A DNA stretch of 64,000 nt, from assembly GCF_017114915.1 (NCBI RefSeq), contig NZ_JAAUOE010000006.1, positions 1-64,000 of the forward strand. Reading direction: 5' to 3'. A model generated the notes under the pieces. That model was given only the letters and a program-made list of their open reading frames with translations. It had not been told where the DNA came from and did no database searches. This document shows positions 8,973 through 14,703 of the stretch, in pieces. The position numbers and the translations under genes are program-made. How positions within the stretch are numbered: position 1 is the first letter of the stretch; every line of letters begins with the position of its first letter. Source of the DNA: Pseudomonas frederiksbergensis. Its GTDB lineage: Bacteria; Pseudomonadota; Gammaproteobacteria; Pseudomonadales; Pseudomonadaceae.

Positions 8973-9194
8973 CCATAATCTCCAAATGATCACGGCCCCA
9001 TCGATTGGTGTTGTCCTTGTCAGGGTATTTCTCATTTTTGTAGGGCATTTCTGAGGGATTTGTAAGCCATGTAATGGCATCGAACTTCGTGGCTCAACCC
9101 ATACCGCAAGCTCGGGCAATCAGCTCGGCCCCTCACCAGGCTGCGCAGAGCCACCCGTGCTGAACGTAAACATTGAGCCTGAAGAGATTTTGAG

Positions 9195-10796
9195 ATGCGA
9201 GAGTGCGAAATTACCCTTGAACCGGCAGCGAGCCGTTTGCCGCTTCCGACCGATGCTCAAGACGTGTGGCAGCGATTCGGTCGTGGGCCAACGGATCAGC
9301 CAGCATTTCTCCTGATTCATCACGCCATCGAAGCACACGCTGCGGTCAGACCCCAGGGCATCGCCGCCCATTGTCTGGGAGAAACCATCAGCTACGGCGA
9401 ATTGAACCGGCAGGCCAATCGCCTGGCCACGCTGTTGCGTCAGCAGGGCGTCGCCCCGGGCGATCACGTGGCCTTGTTTGTGGAACGCTCGATCCCGATG
9501 TTGGTGGGAATGTTGGCAGCATTGAAAGTGGGGGCTGCCTATATTCCCCAGCATGTAGGGATCACCCCCAGCGCACAATTGCGCCACATCATGGACGTGG
9601 CTTCGACGCGGGTGGTGCTGACGCTGTCGAGCCTCAAGTCGCAAATTCCCCTGACCTCACAGCAGCACTGCATTTGCCTCGATGAGTTCATGAAGGTTGC
9701 GTCAACACCCGCTGATGACCTGAATGTGGCCTGTTCGCCGTCATCGACCCCGGACCGATTGTGTTTCGTTCTGTTTACCTCCGGCACCACCGGCCTGCCC
9801 AATGGGGTTCGGGTGACCCAACGTAATGTGTGCAATATTTTGCTGACAGCCCCTGGCAATCTCGGCATGCGGCCTGGGCTCAAGGTCGGACAGATACTTA
9901 ACATTGCCTTTGACATGGCGGCTTGGGAAATACTCGGTTGTCTGGCTCACGGCGCGACCTTGATGATCCGTGGAAAGGACATCGGCCAGACTGCCGAACA
10001 ATGCGATGTGCTGATCGCCACGCCCTCGATTCTCGGCACCCTCGATCCATTGCGTTGCCGGCAAGTCAAGGTCGTGGCCCTTGCAGGGGAGCCGTGCCCG
10101 CGCGCCCTGGCTGATCGCTGGTCGTCGTTCTGCACTTTTTACAATGCCTGCGGCCCGACCGAAACCACCATTGTCAACACCATGCAGCATTACCGGGGCG
10201 AAGGGCCGTTGACGATCGGCAAACCCACTCCCAACAACACGGTGTATGTGCTGGACGAGGCGGGCCGGCTTTGTAAGGTGGGTGAGCAAGGCGAGATGTG
10301 GGCCGGTGGCGACTGTGTGACGGCGGGTTATTTGGGTAACCCTGCGTTGACGGCTGAACGCTATCGACCTGACCCGTTTCTGGGGCAGGGCCGGATGATG
10401 TTCCGCACACGCGATCTGGGGCGCTGGACAGTGAACGGCGAACTTGAACACCTGGGACGCGTCGATGATCAGGTCAAGGTCAGAGGGTTTCGGGTGGAGC
10501 TCGATTCTGTTTCTGCGGCTCTGGAGTCATCCGATAGTTGCGAGCGGGCGGTCACCTTGAAACTCGACAGTCGCCATCTGGCGGCCTTCGTCTATCCCGT
10601 GACCACGGACATCGATGATGCCAGACGGCGTTGTGAAGAGCGGCTTGCCTACTATTGCGTCCCTTCGCTGATTCTCGCCGTGGAGCAGATTCCGCTGACC
10701 TCACGCGGCAAGGTCGACAAACGCTTGCTGCTGGAGTGGGCGATGGCGCATCAGGCCGACCTTGGCGCGGCGACCCGGTCAGTGGTGAACGCATGA
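9195..10796 (+). CDS. Free-standing amino-acid adenylation enzyme (NRPS A-domain type)
   Basis: AMP-forming enzyme of 533 residues with NRPS adenylation core motifs: A3 LFTSGTTGLPNG (193-204), A4 FDMAAWEIL (239-247, Asp240 matching the Asp that holds an alpha-amino group), A5 NACGPTETTI (317-326), A7/A8 RTRDLGRW then GRVDDQVKVRGFRVE, and A10 SRGKVDK (Lys506). The A3 lysine (PKG) is Asn203 here. No carrier-protein domain follows; the protein ends 24 residues after A10. It overlaps the next gene by ATGA, so it is translationally coupled to a membrane reductase-like protein. It probably activates an amino acid as its adenylate. The substrate is not determined, and the acceptor is not encoded in the window as far as I can see. 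Confidence 0.82.
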   Translation: MRECEITLEPAASRLPLPTDAQDVWQRFGRGPTDQPAFLLIHHAIEAHAAVRPQGIAAHCLGETISYGELNRQANRLATLLRQQGVAPGDHVALFVERSIPMLVGMLAALKVGAAYIPQHVGITPSAQLRHIMDVASTRVVLTLSSLKSQIPLTSQQHCICLDEFMKVASTPADDLNVACSPSSTPDRLCFVLFTSGTTGLPNGVRVTQRNVCNILLTAPGNLGMRPGLKVGQILNIAFDMAAWEILGCLAHGATLMIRGKDIGQTAEQCDVLIATPSILGTLDPLRCRQVKVVALAGEPCPRALADRWSSFCTFYNACGPTETTIVNTMQHYRGEGPLTIGKPTPNNTVYVLDEAGRLCKVGEQGEMWAGGDCVTAGYLGNPALTAERYRPDPFLGQGRMMFRTRDLGRWTVNGELEHLGRVDDQVKVRGFRVELDSVSAALESSDSCERAVTLKLDSRHLAAFVYPVTTDIDDARRRCEERLAYYCVPSLILAVEQIPLTSRGKVDKRLLLEWAMAHQADLGAATRSVVNA

Positions 10797-12127
10797 AGGG
10801 GGGGAATCCGGATATCGCGCTACCCGCCAAACATGCGCTATGGCGACGATTGGGAACGTTGCCGATATTTTCTCATTACAACCGCCTGGTGGCGTTGGTG
10901 CTTGCACTCAATATCGCGGCGCTGGCGCATGGGTTGACCGCCGGGCAGTGGTGGACATCTTCGGGGGTTGTCCTTGAGGCGCTGTCGGCGTTGGTGGTGG
11001 CGAATCTGTCGATGGCGATTTTGATTCGCCAGCAATACCTCATCAATCTGCTGTTCTGGCTGGCAACCAGGGCACCCACTGGTTGGCCGCTTGCGATTCG
11101 CCGCTCACTGGCCAAGGTTTACCACTTCGGCGGCCTGCACAGCGGCGGGGCGCTGGCGGCGATTGGCTGGTTCGCGGTGTTGAGTGGCTCCCTGGTCTGG
11201 CATTGGATCAAGGGCCTGGGTGGGGTTTCTCTGGCGCTGCTCGGGGTGAGCGCCGGGTTGCTGGGGATCTTGCTGCTGGTGGCAATCATGGCTCACCCAC
11301 GGATTCGCGCACGTTTTCACAACGGCTTCGAGCGAATGCACCGCTTTGGTGGATGGACCGCGCTCGCGCTGTTCTGGGTATGGACCGTTCTGTTTGCCCG
11401 GGACCAGAACCCGCAGGTCCCCGTGAACGAGGTGCTGTCGACGTCGGTGCCATTCTGGGTGCTGATTGTGCTGACGTTCAGTATTGCCTTGCCATGGTTT
11501 CGTCTGCGCAAAGTGCCGGTGCAACTGATCAGGCCTTCTTCTCATGCGGTGATCGCGCATTTCGGCCATACCACGCCGTTTGCCGGCTCCTCCAACGCCA
11601 TCAGCCTCAACCCGCTGATGGAGTGGCACTCCTTTGCCAATATTCCCGCACCGGGTGAAGCGGGTTTTCGCCTGATCATTTCCCGCGCAGGTGACTGGAC
11701 CGGCGAGTTCATCGAGCAAATGCCGACGCATGTCTGGGTCAAAGGCATTACCACCGCCGGCGTGGCGCATATCGAAACCCTGTTCAAATCGGTGGTGTAC
11801 ATCGCCACGGGCAGCGGCATCGGGCCGGTGTTGCCCCATTTGCTGGCCAGGCAGGTGCCGATACGGCTGGTCTGGTCGACCCGCAGTCCCCGAATCACCT
11901 ACGGTGACGCGTTGGTGGAAGAGATCCTGCGGGCCAATCCCGATGCCCTGATCTGGGACACCGACGTACTCGGCAAGCCAGACCTCGTGCAATTGGCCTA
12001 TAACGCGGTTCGAACGTTCGGTGCCGAGGCGGTGATCTGCATTTCGAACCAGACGCTCACTCAGCGAGTGGTCGAGGAAATGGAGGGGCGGGGCATTCCG
12101 GCATATGGCGCCATCTGGGATTCCTGA
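10793..12127 (+). CDS. Integral membrane protein with C-terminal ferredoxin-reductase-like nucleotide-binding region
   Basis: Protein of 444 residues. The N-terminal half has about six hydrophobic helices (for example [54 protein letters not shown]) and histidine-bearing segments ([25 protein letters not shown]). The C-terminal half looks like a ferredoxin-NAD reductase fold: a flavin-side strand region, then a glycine-rich [19 protein letters not shown]. From memory, this resembles the C-terminal membrane part of fungal NRPS-like A-domain proteins; here it is a separate gene. The start at ATG 10793 overlaps the adenylation gene's stop. An in-frame extension upstream lies entirely inside that gene and was rejected. 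Function unknown; a redox step on the activated amino acid is conceivable. Confidence 0.72.
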
Positions 12128-12182
12128 TGCTCGCCAGGCGCTGTTTCATTCAAACATTTCACCCGTATTCAATGAGGTCACC

Positions 12183-12947
12183 ATGCACACACTGATCGAA
12201 CGTCATGATCGAGTCGTATTGATTCGTCTTAATCGCCCGCAGGCCAGGAATGCGTTGAGCTCGGCCCTGATGCGCGAACTGCTGGATACGTTGCAGCGGC
12301 TGGACCGTGACCCCGGGGTCGGCTGTTTCGTGATCACCGGAACGGCAGATTTTTTTGCGGCGGGCGCGGACATCAAGGAGATGTACGAAAAATCTTATCT
12401 GGACATGGTCCATGAGGATTATTTTGCCGAGTGGGAGGCCTTTGCCGCGTTGCGTACGCCCAAGCTGGCCGCTGTTGCGGGTTATGCATACGGTGGTGGC
12501 TGTGAGCTGGCCATGATGTGCGATCTGATCTTTGCCGCGGATACGGCACGTTTTGGCCAACCGGAAATCAGATTGGGGGTGATGCCTGGAATGGGCGGGA
12601 CCCAACGTCTTACACGCCTGATAGGCAAGTCGAAGGCCATGGACATGATTTTGACCGGACGTTCGATGTCGGCCGAAGAGGCTGAGCGGGCAGGGTTGGT
12701 GTCGCGCGTAATCGCTGCCTGCGATCTGCTGGAACACTCCTTGGCCGCGGCGCAGATCATGGCCGGTTTCGCCAAAACCGCCACACTTGCTGCGCGTGAA
12801 GCAGTTGACCGGGCACTGGAGTCGGGATTGCGCGATGGCCTTCTGTACGAGCGAAGGGTGTTTCATGGTTTGTTTGCCACGGGAGGGCAAAAGGAAGGTA
12901 TGCAGGCCTTTTTGGAGAAGCGTGAGCCGTGTTTCAACCCGGTTTGA
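12183..12947 (+). CDS. Enoyl-CoA hydratase (crotonase family)
   Basis: Crotonase of 254 residues that looks fully active. The oxyanion-hole/catalytic segment [15 protein letters not shown] and the second glutamate in [18 protein letters not shown] both match mitochondrial short-chain enoyl-CoA hydratase, as does [18 protein letters not shown]. Start at ATG 12183 follows GAGGTCACC. It is 55 bases after the membrane reductase gene and has the same orientation, so it is probably cotranscribed with the adenylation unit. Its substrate there is unknown. Confidence 0.85.
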
Positions 12948-13069
12948 GCAGCCTTGAGGATTCGTTGCTCGCGGTGCTTTGAAAGAAACTACAGTTCAGG
13001 GGGATTAATCCTACGTGACGTTCGTCTCATAGCTCTTTTCCCCTATGGCCCATGGCCCTGGAGACTTTC

Positions 13070-14161
13070 ATGGTTGATCGCTCATCTGCAACTGGGCCGT
13101 CTCGGCCACCCCTGAGTACCGCGAGCCGGACGCTGCGCCTGACCGGCATTGCCTTGGTGGTTGCCGGGTTGGCCGGGGCTTTTGCCTACGTCAACGGCAC
13201 ACTCGACCCACAGCGTCTGACGCCGAACGTGTTGATCAATGTGCTGGAGAAAAATAACGGCGTGCATCCGGGGTTCCGTCGTAACCACGCCAAAGGGGTT
13301 TGCGTGATCGGGCATTTCGAGAGCAGCGGCCAGGCGCGCGAGTATTCCAGTGCCCAAGTGTTCAGCCAGGCGCGGACTCCGGTGGTCGGGCGCTTTGCGC
13401 TGCCTGCCGGCAACCCTTATGCGCCAGACAACAGCGTGTCGATCCGCAGCCTGGCGTTGCGTTTCACCCAGGCCAACGGTCAGCAGTGGCGCACCGGGAT
13501 GAACAGCATGCCGGTGTTCCCGGTGGGCACGCCCGAGGCGTTCTATCAGCTGCAACAAGCGCAGTCGCCGGATCCGGCGACCGGTAAACCGAATCCCGCG
13601 GCTGTTCCGGCGTTCTTCGGTTCTCACCCGGAAGCAGCACCGTTTCTGGCCTGGATCAAAACCGCCAAGCCGTCGGCCAGTTATGCGACGGAAACCTATA
13701 ACAGTGTCAACGCGTTTTACCTGGTGAACGCAGCCGGGCAACGGCAGGCGGTGCGTTGGAGCATGGCGCCGGTCGCTCAGGACGCAGCGGGTGCGACGGC
13801 CCCGGAGGGCGCTGACTTCCTGGAGAAAGATCTGGCTCAGCGCTTGTCCGCCGGATCGTTGCGTTGGCAGTTGAACATCACCCTGGCGAACCCCGGGGAC
13901 CCGGTCAATGACGCCAGCAAGGCGTGGCCCAATGACCGAAAAGTGCTGAACGCCGGCATGCTGGTGCTCGAAAGCACTCAGCCGCAACTCAATGGCGAAT
14001 GCCGTGATATCAACTATGACCCACTGGTATTGCCCAGCGGTATCGAAGGCTCCGACGACCCGCTGCTCGCCGCTCGCTCAGCAGGTTACGCCCGTTCCTA
14101 CCTGCGCCGCACCAGCGAAGTCAGTCAATTGCCCGCTGCCAGACAGGAGGCTCGTCAATGA
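13070..14161 (+). CDS. Catalase-related peroxidase, SrpA-like, membrane-anchored
   Basis: Heme protein of the catalase superfamily, short SrpA-like branch, 363 residues. An N-terminal hydrophobic helix (LTGIALVVAGLAGAFAYV, residues about 24-41) suggests export or anchoring facing the periplasm. The distal histidine segment RRNHAKGVCVIGHFE and the proximal tyrosine region DPLLAARSAGYARSYLRR are both seen. ATG 13070 is preceded by GGAG at a 6-base spacing; an ATG at 13052 is an alternative. It overlaps the cytochrome b561 gene by 4 bases, a pairing known for this family, and suggests electrons delivered from the membrane for peroxide reduction. Confidence 0.85.
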   Translation: MVDRSSATGPSRPPLSTASRTLRLTGIALVVAGLAGAFAYVNGTLDPQRLTPNVLINVLEKNNGVHPGFRRNHAKGVCVIGHFESSGQAREYSSAQVFSQARTPVVGRFALPAGNPYAPDNSVSIRSLALRFTQANGQQWRTGMNSMPVFPVGTPEAFYQLQQAQSPDPATGKPNPAAVPAFFGSHPEAAPFLAWIKTAKPSASYATETYNSVNAFYLVNAAGQRQAVRWSMAPVAQDAAGATAPEGADFLEKDLAQRLSAGSLRWQLNITLANPGDPVNDASKAWPNDRKVLNAGMLVLESTQPQLNGECRDINYDPLVLPSGIEGSDDPLLAARSAGYARSYLRRTSEVSQLPAARQEARQ

Positions 14162-14703
14162 GCGCTCAACCGAACCATTTCGCGCCGTTGGCGCGACTGC
14201 TGCACTGGCTGATGGCGTTGATGATTATCGCCATGCTGTTTATCGGCGCGGGCATGGTGGCCTCGGTGTCGGAGCGTCATGAGTGGCTGATCCATCTGCA
14301 CAAACCCTTGGGTATCGCGATTTTGCTGTTGGTGATCGTGCGTCTGGCCGTGCGTTTTTCGACCCGGCAACCGCCGCTGCCGGCGGACCTGCCGGGTTGG
14401 CAAGTGCTCGCGGCGAAGGCCTCGCATGTCTTGCTGTACGCCTTGATGCTGATTTTGCCGCTGCTGGGCTGGGCGATGATTTCGGCGGCTGGCGATCCGG
14501 TGATGCTTAGTCGTTCGCTGCTGTTGCCATCGATCCTGCCGGCGAATGCGCAGGTGTTTGCGTTTCTGCGCAAGGCCCATGGGTATCTGGCGTATCTGCT
14601 GTTCCTGACCGTGCTGCTGCACTTGGCGGCGGCGTTGTTTCACGGTTGGGTGCGCCGCGATGAGGTGCTCGACAGCATGTTGCGGGGCAGGGATCGGGGC
14701 TAA
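14158..14703 (+). CDS. Cytochrome b561
   Basis: Four-helix membrane cytochrome of 181 residues. Histidines suited to binding two b hemes sit in RLLHWLMALMI (helix 1), WLIHLHKPLGIAILL (helix 2), ASHVLLYALMLILPLLGW (helix 3) and KAHGYLAYLLF with LLHLAAALFHG (helix 4). It is coupled by ATGA to the catalase-like gene and probably acts as its electron donor from the quinone pool; that is inference from the pairing. Confidence 0.88.
   Translation: MSAQPNHFAPLARLLHWLMALMIIAMLFIGAGMVASVSERHEWLIHLHKPLGIAILLLVIVRLAVRFSTRQPPLPADLPGWQVLAAKASHVLLYALMLILPLLGWAMISAAGDPVMLSRSLLLPSILPANAQVFAFLRKAHGYLAYLLFLTVLLHLAAALFHGWVRRDEVLDSMLRGRDRG

Follow-up and report, generated by a model that had tools for sequence, protein, structure and literature searches.

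The window analysed here, i.e. the whole stretch formed by positions 1 to 64,000 of contig NZ_JAAUOE010000006.1 from Pseudomonas frederiksbergensis, contains an operon of three genes coding for a free-standing amino-acid adenylation enzyme, a membrane flavoprotein (hereafter the reductase) and an enoyl-coenzyme A (CoA) hydratase. We regard this operon, with a probability of about 0.6, as a bacterial counterpart, divided into separate genes, of the fungal proteins TmpB and TmpL accompanied by a hydratase neighbour, which would make one amino-acid-derived redox or signalling metabolite. In the available passages of the fungal reports, TmpL and TmpB are described as a nonribosomal peptide synthetase (NRPS)-type adenylation (A) domain devoid of carrier or condensation domain and fused to a flavin adenine dinucleotide (FAD)/NAD(P) oxidoreductase, and both were characterised by phenotype, namely conidiation defects (PMC2766074, PMC4804170). 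That the operon makes a metabolite is rather probable, and that it is a true relative of TmpB and TmpL highly so; a redox or signalling role is suggested by the gene context and by the fungal phenotypes.

The adenylation, reductase and hydratase genes form a conserved operon. The start ATG of the reductase gene overlaps the TGA of the adenylation gene as ATGA (10793-10796), and the ATG of the hydratase gene lies 55 bases 3' of the reductase gene (Table 1). The three-gene unit proposed in the preliminary description was thus borne out by its coordinates, and the same order recurs in three phyla. The closest named loci belong to Pseudomonas, with a reductase identity of 93%. No tandem repeats were found near the operon.

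The distribution of the operon was established by using the reductase to scan a set of genomes, one for each species, and retaining the best 80 of 108 related stretches, a choice favouring close relatives. These 80 loci belonged to Pseudomonadota, Actinomycetota and Bacteroidota and bore 24 genus-level labels. The adenylation gene lay directly upstream of the reductase gene in 77 of them by rule and in 78 once L062 was recovered, whose long adenylation frame proved to be a run-on past the gene in another frame and not a fusion. Only L078 and L086 were devoid of it, L084, where it is in broken frames, being counted as present. A hydratase, defined by more than 45% identity over more than 200 residues and an end within 1.6 kb of the reductase, followed 3' of the reductase in 67 loci, and both partners were present by rule in 66. 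Among the 13 loci without a rule-defined hydratase, one (L064) was not judgeable, its contig ending 154 bases after the reductase match.

Co-occurrence across genomes, which had been set beforehand as the refutation test of the unit, was found in these loci and also among 298 Pseudomonas genomes, for which scoring was limited to the best four to eight first-look candidates of each genome; an additional, diverged copy may thus have escaped. The reductase was present in 24 genomes, a weak fragment in G127 (E 5e-4, one stop) being left out of an initial 25; in another search, a sixth match, in G014 (E 8e-4), was set aside in the same way. Adenylation enzymes of the operon type (at least 625 bits, the next best scoring 388) occurred in 23 of these 24 genomes, one copy (G073) being frameshifted, and in no other Pseudomonas genome; the 24th carrier (G227) has its reductase on a contig of 4,120 bases, where the final portion of an adenylation gene is retained. 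Hydratases of the operon type (at least 430 bits, next best 393) were found in 18 genomes, each of them one of the 24 carriers and each with the hydratase gene adjacent to that of the reductase, and neither partner was found in the other 274. In two wider draws the reductase was rare, being detected in 4 of 398 Pseudomonadota, window genome included, and in 3 of 296 genomes of the phylum of Micromonospora, that Micromonospora included. A chance neighbourhood of the three genes was rejected on the basis of this co-occurrence and of the gene order conserved over three phyla.

The three proteins also diverge together. Pairwise distance correlations ranged from 0.89 to 0.92 over 65 loci and from 0.73 to 0.79 when a single locus per genus was retained (21 loci), species history being uncorrected in both cases. 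In the reductase tree, Actinomycetota and Bacteroidota each fell on one side of a branch and Pseudomonadota required two changes; this quick tree has several long branches and its details are unsure.

The adenylation enzyme was described beforehand as a free-standing amino-acid adenylation enzyme with the Asp for the alpha-amino group and no carrier, and each of these traits was recovered. It matched the AMP-binding family PF00501 (E 7e-65) and exceeded the cut-off of the amino-acid adenylation model TIGR01733 (327.9 versus 317.4 bits), and no carrier or condensation domain was detected in it by Pfam, so that the carrier (T) domain joined to A in an NRPS module is missing. The AlphaFold2 model had a predicted local distance difference test (pLDDT) score of 89 and retrieved, as top Foldseek match by E-value in the PDB, PheA of gramicidin synthetase (1amu). 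FTSGTTGLPNG is what we take to be the A3 motif. At the PheA positions the pocket code reads D-M-W-(I/V)-A-A-(A/G/S/C)-I-(V/I)-K, seven of its ten positions being the same residue in 76 or all of the 77 aligned rows. Since this pocket is nearly invariant across three phyla, it suggests that the family acts on one substrate. The pocket resembles the Phe code at positions 239, 301 and 330 and departs from it at 236, 278 and 299, positions 236, 278, 299, 301 and 331 (PheA numbering) being placed according to the usual PheA code.

PheA-type domains such as that of GrsA share with the window enzyme the fold, the A motifs, the Asp and Lys contacting the amino acid and the Trp239 equivalent, but differ by the distance from Asp235 to position 322 (87 residues versus 78 here), by the pocket at positions 236, 278 and 299 and by their carrier domain. 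Identification as an ordinary NRPS A domain was rejected in Pseudomonas, where members scored 625 to 890 bits against their own model and the other A domains among the candidates scored at most 388; those other domains belong to frames at least about 1,300 codons long. Fungal adenylate-forming reductases of A-T-R organisation are defined by a carrier and an NAD(P) thioester reductase domain; neither appeared in the Pfam search, and the partner here has a predicted membrane flavoprotein fold.

The comparison with TmpB and TmpL is closer. Features of TmpL include six putative helices and an FAD/NAD(P) domain with the motif GSGIGP, its FAD motif being RLHFD, according to the text available (PMC2766074). 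The bacterial proteins likewise combine a carrier-less and condensation-less NRPS-type A enzyme with six predicted helices and an FAD/NAD(P) domain holding GSGIGP, and their summed length (533+444 = 977 residues) is near the 989 residues given for TmpB (PMC4804170). The pocket residues listed there for TmpB (D238, W242, C307, G309, I315 and K495) are identical in the window enzyme at five of six places (D240, W244, G320, I326, K506); C307 is replaced by Ala318, a place where 8 of the 77 bacterial rows have Cys. This residue, at position 322, lies 188 residues before the Lys on both sides. In Aspergilli, moreover, an enoyl-CoA hydratase/isomerase gene is reported as a neighbour of tmpB in the same passages (PMC4804170), an association and not a strict criterion; the bacterial loci likewise have a hydratase gene as neighbour, in the proportion given above. 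Two differences stand out. The bacterial loci are accompanied by bacterial regulators, and wherever both genes were present (78 of 78 loci) the adenylation and reductase parts were two proteins, no fused polypeptide being found. Owing to this lack of fusion, the bacterial operon is not classed as TmpL proper. A further fungal protein, TmpA, is also a stand-alone membrane oxidoreductase and acts with the 4-coumarate-ligase-like AfeA, unlike the NRPS-type A enzyme that partners the reductase here. It is given as 55% similar to the oxidoreductase domain of TmpB in the text available (PMC4804170).

The fungal fusion of an A domain with a membrane reductase, mentioned in the preliminary description, thus exists under the names TmpL, TmpB and ChNPS12 (PMC2766074, PMC4804170, PMC2823734, each from the passages available). 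Its further statement that such a system was not yet described in bacteria held only in part: standalone bacterial A domains nested within the ChNPS12 clade were noted in 2010 (PMC2823734), but an adjacent reductase or hydratase is not mentioned in the passages of that paper at hand, and the word enoyl is absent from the paper. Literature searches, judged by title and covering mostly open-access publications, yielded no recognisable report on the bacterial operon or on the product of TmpL, and those aimed at the domain architecture returned nothing or unrelated papers.

The affinity with NRPS domains leaves room for another explanation, in which the A enzyme would be a trans-acting NRPS piece loading a separate NRPS or a stand-alone carrier, with reductase and hydratase tailoring the carrier-bound residue. 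PheA as the top Foldseek match would fit, as would the EntF structures, which reached the top TM-scores among the matches listed (0.83-0.84) and include holo-EntF in its thioester-forming state; such a role has also been suggested for standalone bacterial A domains, according to the passages available (PMC2823734). We consider this explanation unlikely. No carrier or condensation gene was recognised by eye, or in some cases through Pfam, in the flanks of 18 non-Pseudomonas loci, an argument that is weak by itself; the fungal fusion is likewise free of a carrier in the text available (PMC2766074), and the hydratase is closest to hydratases of CoA type.

The reductase matched no family in Pfam at E<=0.1 or in NCBIfam at E<=0.01. 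Among 33 relatives, three matched Ferric_reduct (PF01794; best E 0.007) and four NAD_binding_1 (best E 0.019) when matches up to E 1 were admitted. The AlphaFold2 model built with these 33 relatives as input (mean pLDDT 88, predicted TM-score 0.85) consists of six long helices followed by an FAD/NAD(P) module; a plain hydropathy scan marked five of the six helices and missed the fifth. Foldseek and VIA-align matched the protein along its whole length to NADPH oxidases, with SpNOX, NOX2, NOX5 and DUOX1 as top structural matches; Z was 22.2 for SpNOX (364 residues, 13% identity) and 21.8 for NOX2 (404 residues). The reductase is therefore predicted to adopt the full NADPH-oxidase fold, overall fold being one criterion of NOX proteins. 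Six helices coupled to a ferredoxin-reductase-like domain had been announced for this protein: the membrane flavoprotein fold stood, but the resemblance is to the NADPH-oxidase fold as a whole and not to the reductase domain alone. Six helices and a dehydrogenase module are shared with the NADPH oxidase/ferric reductase superfamily (SpNOX, NOX2, NOX5), from which the reductase departs by 12-18% identity to full-length matches, by the lack of a Pfam match at cut-off and by an altered FAD motif, EWHSFAN in place of the HPFT of ferric reductases. Sequence matches in the PDB to versicolorin reductase and, at E 0.054, to 33 residues of NOX2 were weak and not significant, and were discarded.

The putative heme ligands set the reductase further apart. 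His111, His116, His176, His183, Trp126 and Trp195 were invariant across the 33 relatives. When the reductase was aligned by profile with four ferric reductases, a weak match (E 0.0017, probability 16) that leaves transmembrane helix 3 (TM3) outside, His183 fell on their first TM5 His, and their second TM5 His met a Trp. There is no His at residues 117-136 or 184-250 of the window reductase, and His137 is not conserved. The spacing of heme-ligand His residues in NOX proteins is about 13-14 residues, a value also read in ferric reductases. NOX proteins are characterised by two pairs of heme-ligand His on TM3 and TM5; conserved His were found here only at 111/116 and 176/183, which leaves one possible ligand pair, unlike NOX and ferric reductases. 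We infer that the reductase binds at most one heme, the inner one near the FAD, for which His111 or His116 would be the candidate ligand on the TM3 side.

These features bear on the possibility that the reductase makes or removes reactive oxygen as a NOX or ferric reductase, the other two genes only modifying its substrate or a siderophore precursor. The structural matches named above, the weak PF01794 match in three of 33 members and the catalase-family neighbour agree with it. The second pair of heme-ligand His has no counterpart, however, with the invariant Trp126 and Trp195 near those places, and in Pseudomonas the reductase was found only together with the A enzyme, which makes this possibility quite unlikely.

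The hydratase is a full-length crotonase (PF00378, E 9e-73, 245 bits for a cut-off of 27). Glu108 and Glu128, which we take to be the catalytic pair of crotonases, were present in 68 of 68 operon copies, in agreement with the apparently active crotonase announced beforehand. Its closest model was the short-chain enoyl-CoA hydratase NF004517, at 381.8 bits and thus below the cut-off of 396. It shares the family and both catalytic Glu with the short-chain type PRK05862/EchA8, but operon hydratases form a clade of their own with seven family-typical residues such as Trp84, each occurring in at most one of seven paralogues. These paralogues, from six genomes, were separated from the operon copies in a quick tree (Shimodaira-Hasegawa-like approximate likelihood ratio test 99), and the idea of an accidental housekeeping hydratase was rejected since the operon copies form this single clade. 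The hydratase is nevertheless the variable member of the operon, lacking in 12 of 79 judgeable loci and, among the 24 Pseudomonas carriers, in six; locus L017 keeps a fragment only (residues 1-43). Among 11 genomes whose locus is without a complete hydratase (those of L017 and L086 left out), nine have a match at E<=1e-60 with 52-59% identity and two have none; in the L064 genome this match starts at contig base 1 and may be the operon's own copy. In L089, a flavin monooxygenase-like gene (9209-10672) was observed 3' of the reductase, in the usual place of the hydratase.

An intact hydratase might alternatively point to a catabolic unit in which an amino acid would be converted into its CoA ester and enter a beta-oxidation-like step, the reductase serving as electron carrier. 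The hydratase is indeed nearest to true short-chain enoyl-CoA hydratase models with both catalytic Glu, and, in the window, the operon is preceded upstream by a gene for an IclR regulator and by ABC transporter-like genes. However, NADPH-oxidase-type proteins are established to move electrons outward from NAD(P)H and not from a substrate to quinone; the annotated neighbour clusters found in several genera consisted of regulators and one DUF pair, although a thiolase or dehydrogenase is possible among the remaining clusters; and the distribution is sparse. A catabolic unit is accordingly very unlikely.

Table 1. Features of the operon and its surroundings in the window.
Feature	Coordinates	Strand	Basis
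Carrier-less amino-acid adenylation enzyme, 533 residues	9195..10796	+	profile matches, AlphaFold2 model, Foldseek
A3 motif FTSGTTGLPNG, residues 194-204	9774..9806	+	sequence; kept across family
Asp240, equivalent of PheA Asp235 (alpha-amino group), first pocket-code residue	9912..9914	+	D in 76 of 77 rows
Lys506, equivalent of PheA Lys517	10710..10712	+	77 of 77 rows
Membrane flavoprotein, predicted NADPH-oxidase fold, 444 residues, ATGA overlap	10793..12127	+	AlphaFold2 model, structure matches
TM3 motif KVYHFGGLH, residues 108-116, with His111 and His116	11114..11140	+	invariant in 33 rows
TM5 motif HNGFERMH, residues 176-183, with His176 and His183	11318..11341	+	invariant in 33 rows
RLIIS, residues 293-297, putative FAD phosphate motif of RxYS/T kind	11669..11683	+	sequence
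GSGIGP, residues 340-345, putative NAD(P) motif	11810..11827	+	sequence; identical to the motif printed for TmpL in the passages available of PMC2766074
Enoyl-CoA hydratase, 254 residues; Glu108 (12504-12506), Glu128 (12564-12566)	12183..12947	+	profile match, alignment
Catalase-family protein (PF00199), flank, outside core	13052..14161	+	Pfam
Cytochrome b561 (PF01292), 3' of the catalase-family gene, flank, outside core	14158..14703	+	Pfam
Junction lacking about 1.36 kb (extracytoplasmic function (ECF) sigma factor and partner gene; L011 4871-6230)	8991..9027	.	comparison with the nearest relative, L011

From the genes, predicted folds, motifs, gene order, co-occurrence and co-divergence computed here, a pathway corresponding to the split TmpB/TmpL counterpart may be sketched. 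The cytosolic adenylation enzyme, to judge from its conserved residues, would adenylate one particular hydrophobic amino acid and, being carrier-less, would transfer the aminoacyl moiety either to CoA or to its membrane partner, CoA being favoured as acceptor by the presence of the hydratase. The flavoprotein of NADPH-oxidase fold, with at most one inner heme, would oxidise or reduce the activated amino acid or one of its derivatives. The hydratase, given its family and intact active site, would add or remove water across an alpha,beta-unsaturated CoA thioester. Synthesis would take place at the inner membrane and be subject to stress or sensory regulation, and the product may protect against or signal oxidative stress, as the catalase/ECF or two-component neighbours and the published fungal mutants suggest. 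This exact order of steps is rather doubtful. Somewhat less so, though still tentative, is the idea of a hitherto unrecognised route common to the three bacterial phyla and filamentous fungi, comprising the carrier-less activation of one specific amino acid, its oxidation or desaturation by a single-heme membrane enzyme with NADPH-oxidase fold and hydration of a CoA ester, and leading to one conserved small molecule that would signal oxidative stress or protect against it.

Several observations weigh against the proposed counterpart. Kinship with TmpB and TmpL rests on published features and not on a sequence alignment, and the absence of fusion has been mentioned. The fungal redox role varies by species, Aspergillus nidulans tmpB mutants being reported, in the passages available, as not sensitive to peroxide or menadione (PMC4804170). 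From the pocket, we would only say that the substrate is a hydrophobic amino acid. Heme binding was deduced with the help of a ferric-reductase profile match that is weak and without TM3, and MsrQ-type proteins, considered as relatives of the reductase, gave a profile match of E 0.28 and hence no support. The six Pseudomonas carriers without a hydratase indicate that this enzyme may be ancillary or replaceable. As to regulation, the window strain is without the roughly 1.36 kb holding the ECF pair (Table 1), 27 of 51 non-Pseudomonas loci are devoid of both types of regulator within the stretch retrieved, and the regulator counts given below stand without a background rate.

The operon is of interest in several respects. 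Its class was already known in fungi; the split bacterial operon is a new form of it. What TmpL makes becomes a directly testable question in Pseudomonas, which is readily handled, carries each activity on a separate protein and offers operon-free relatives for comparison. The hydratase neighbour common to both kingdoms suggests a CoA-thioester step in the pathway, a neighbour that the fungal text, in the passages available, mentions only in passing.

The surroundings of the operon were well conserved in Pseudomonas, where homologues of the catalase-family and cytochrome b561 genes were present in the stretch at 29 of 29 loci and those of the ECF sigma factor gene and its partner at 28, the remaining locus (L031) being a 4-kb contig. 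The partner gene has no Pfam match and, from its place, likely codes for an anti-sigma factor. Thirteen operon-free Pseudomonas genomes had a catalase-family gene at E<=1e-60; in the four drawn from them (L139-L142), the ECF and catalase-family genes were divergent and side by side. By comparison with L007, L008 and L011, the operon therefore fills the gap between these two genes, which provides a clean filled and empty site. The gap contains GGAATAA...CGTCT-like elements facing both ways, and these elements, we assume, resemble ECF promoters. In the window genome, the sigma factors found were only distant ones (23-31% identity). Before the catalase-family gene (13002-13027), the window reads GGATTAA...CGTCT where the relatives compared, L008 included, have GGAATAA...CGTCT; this change is perhaps decay after the loss of the sigma factor. 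Upstream of the adenylation gene (9040-9079), the segment around TGTAATGG has a similar counterpart in L011 and less similar ones in L007 and L008, and is possibly a promoter of unfamiliar type.

Outside Pseudomonas, homologues of an OmpR-type regulator and a histidine kinase were found near the operon in 21 of 51 loci, directly upstream of it in Micromonospora (L038). A catalase gene is divergent to the operon in Endozoicomonas. Two loci from bins of Kiloniellales and Rhodobacteraceae carry similar gene pairs upstream of the operon, assigned by Pfam to DUF6502 and DUF5666 in L065 (4260-6046) and located at 4298-6108 in L080.

Besides the two loci mentioned above, from an uncultured member of the Pseudomonadales (L078) and from Erwinia (L086), a reductase gene without adjoining adenylation gene was observed on a Pantoea plasmid (L136). 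Cyanobacterial plasmids carry relatives aligning with residues 167-444 of the reductase at 34-35% identity, each followed by an HlyD-like gene (L137 6475-9078, L138 6572-9287). All these reductases without adenylation gene are possibly TmpA-like.

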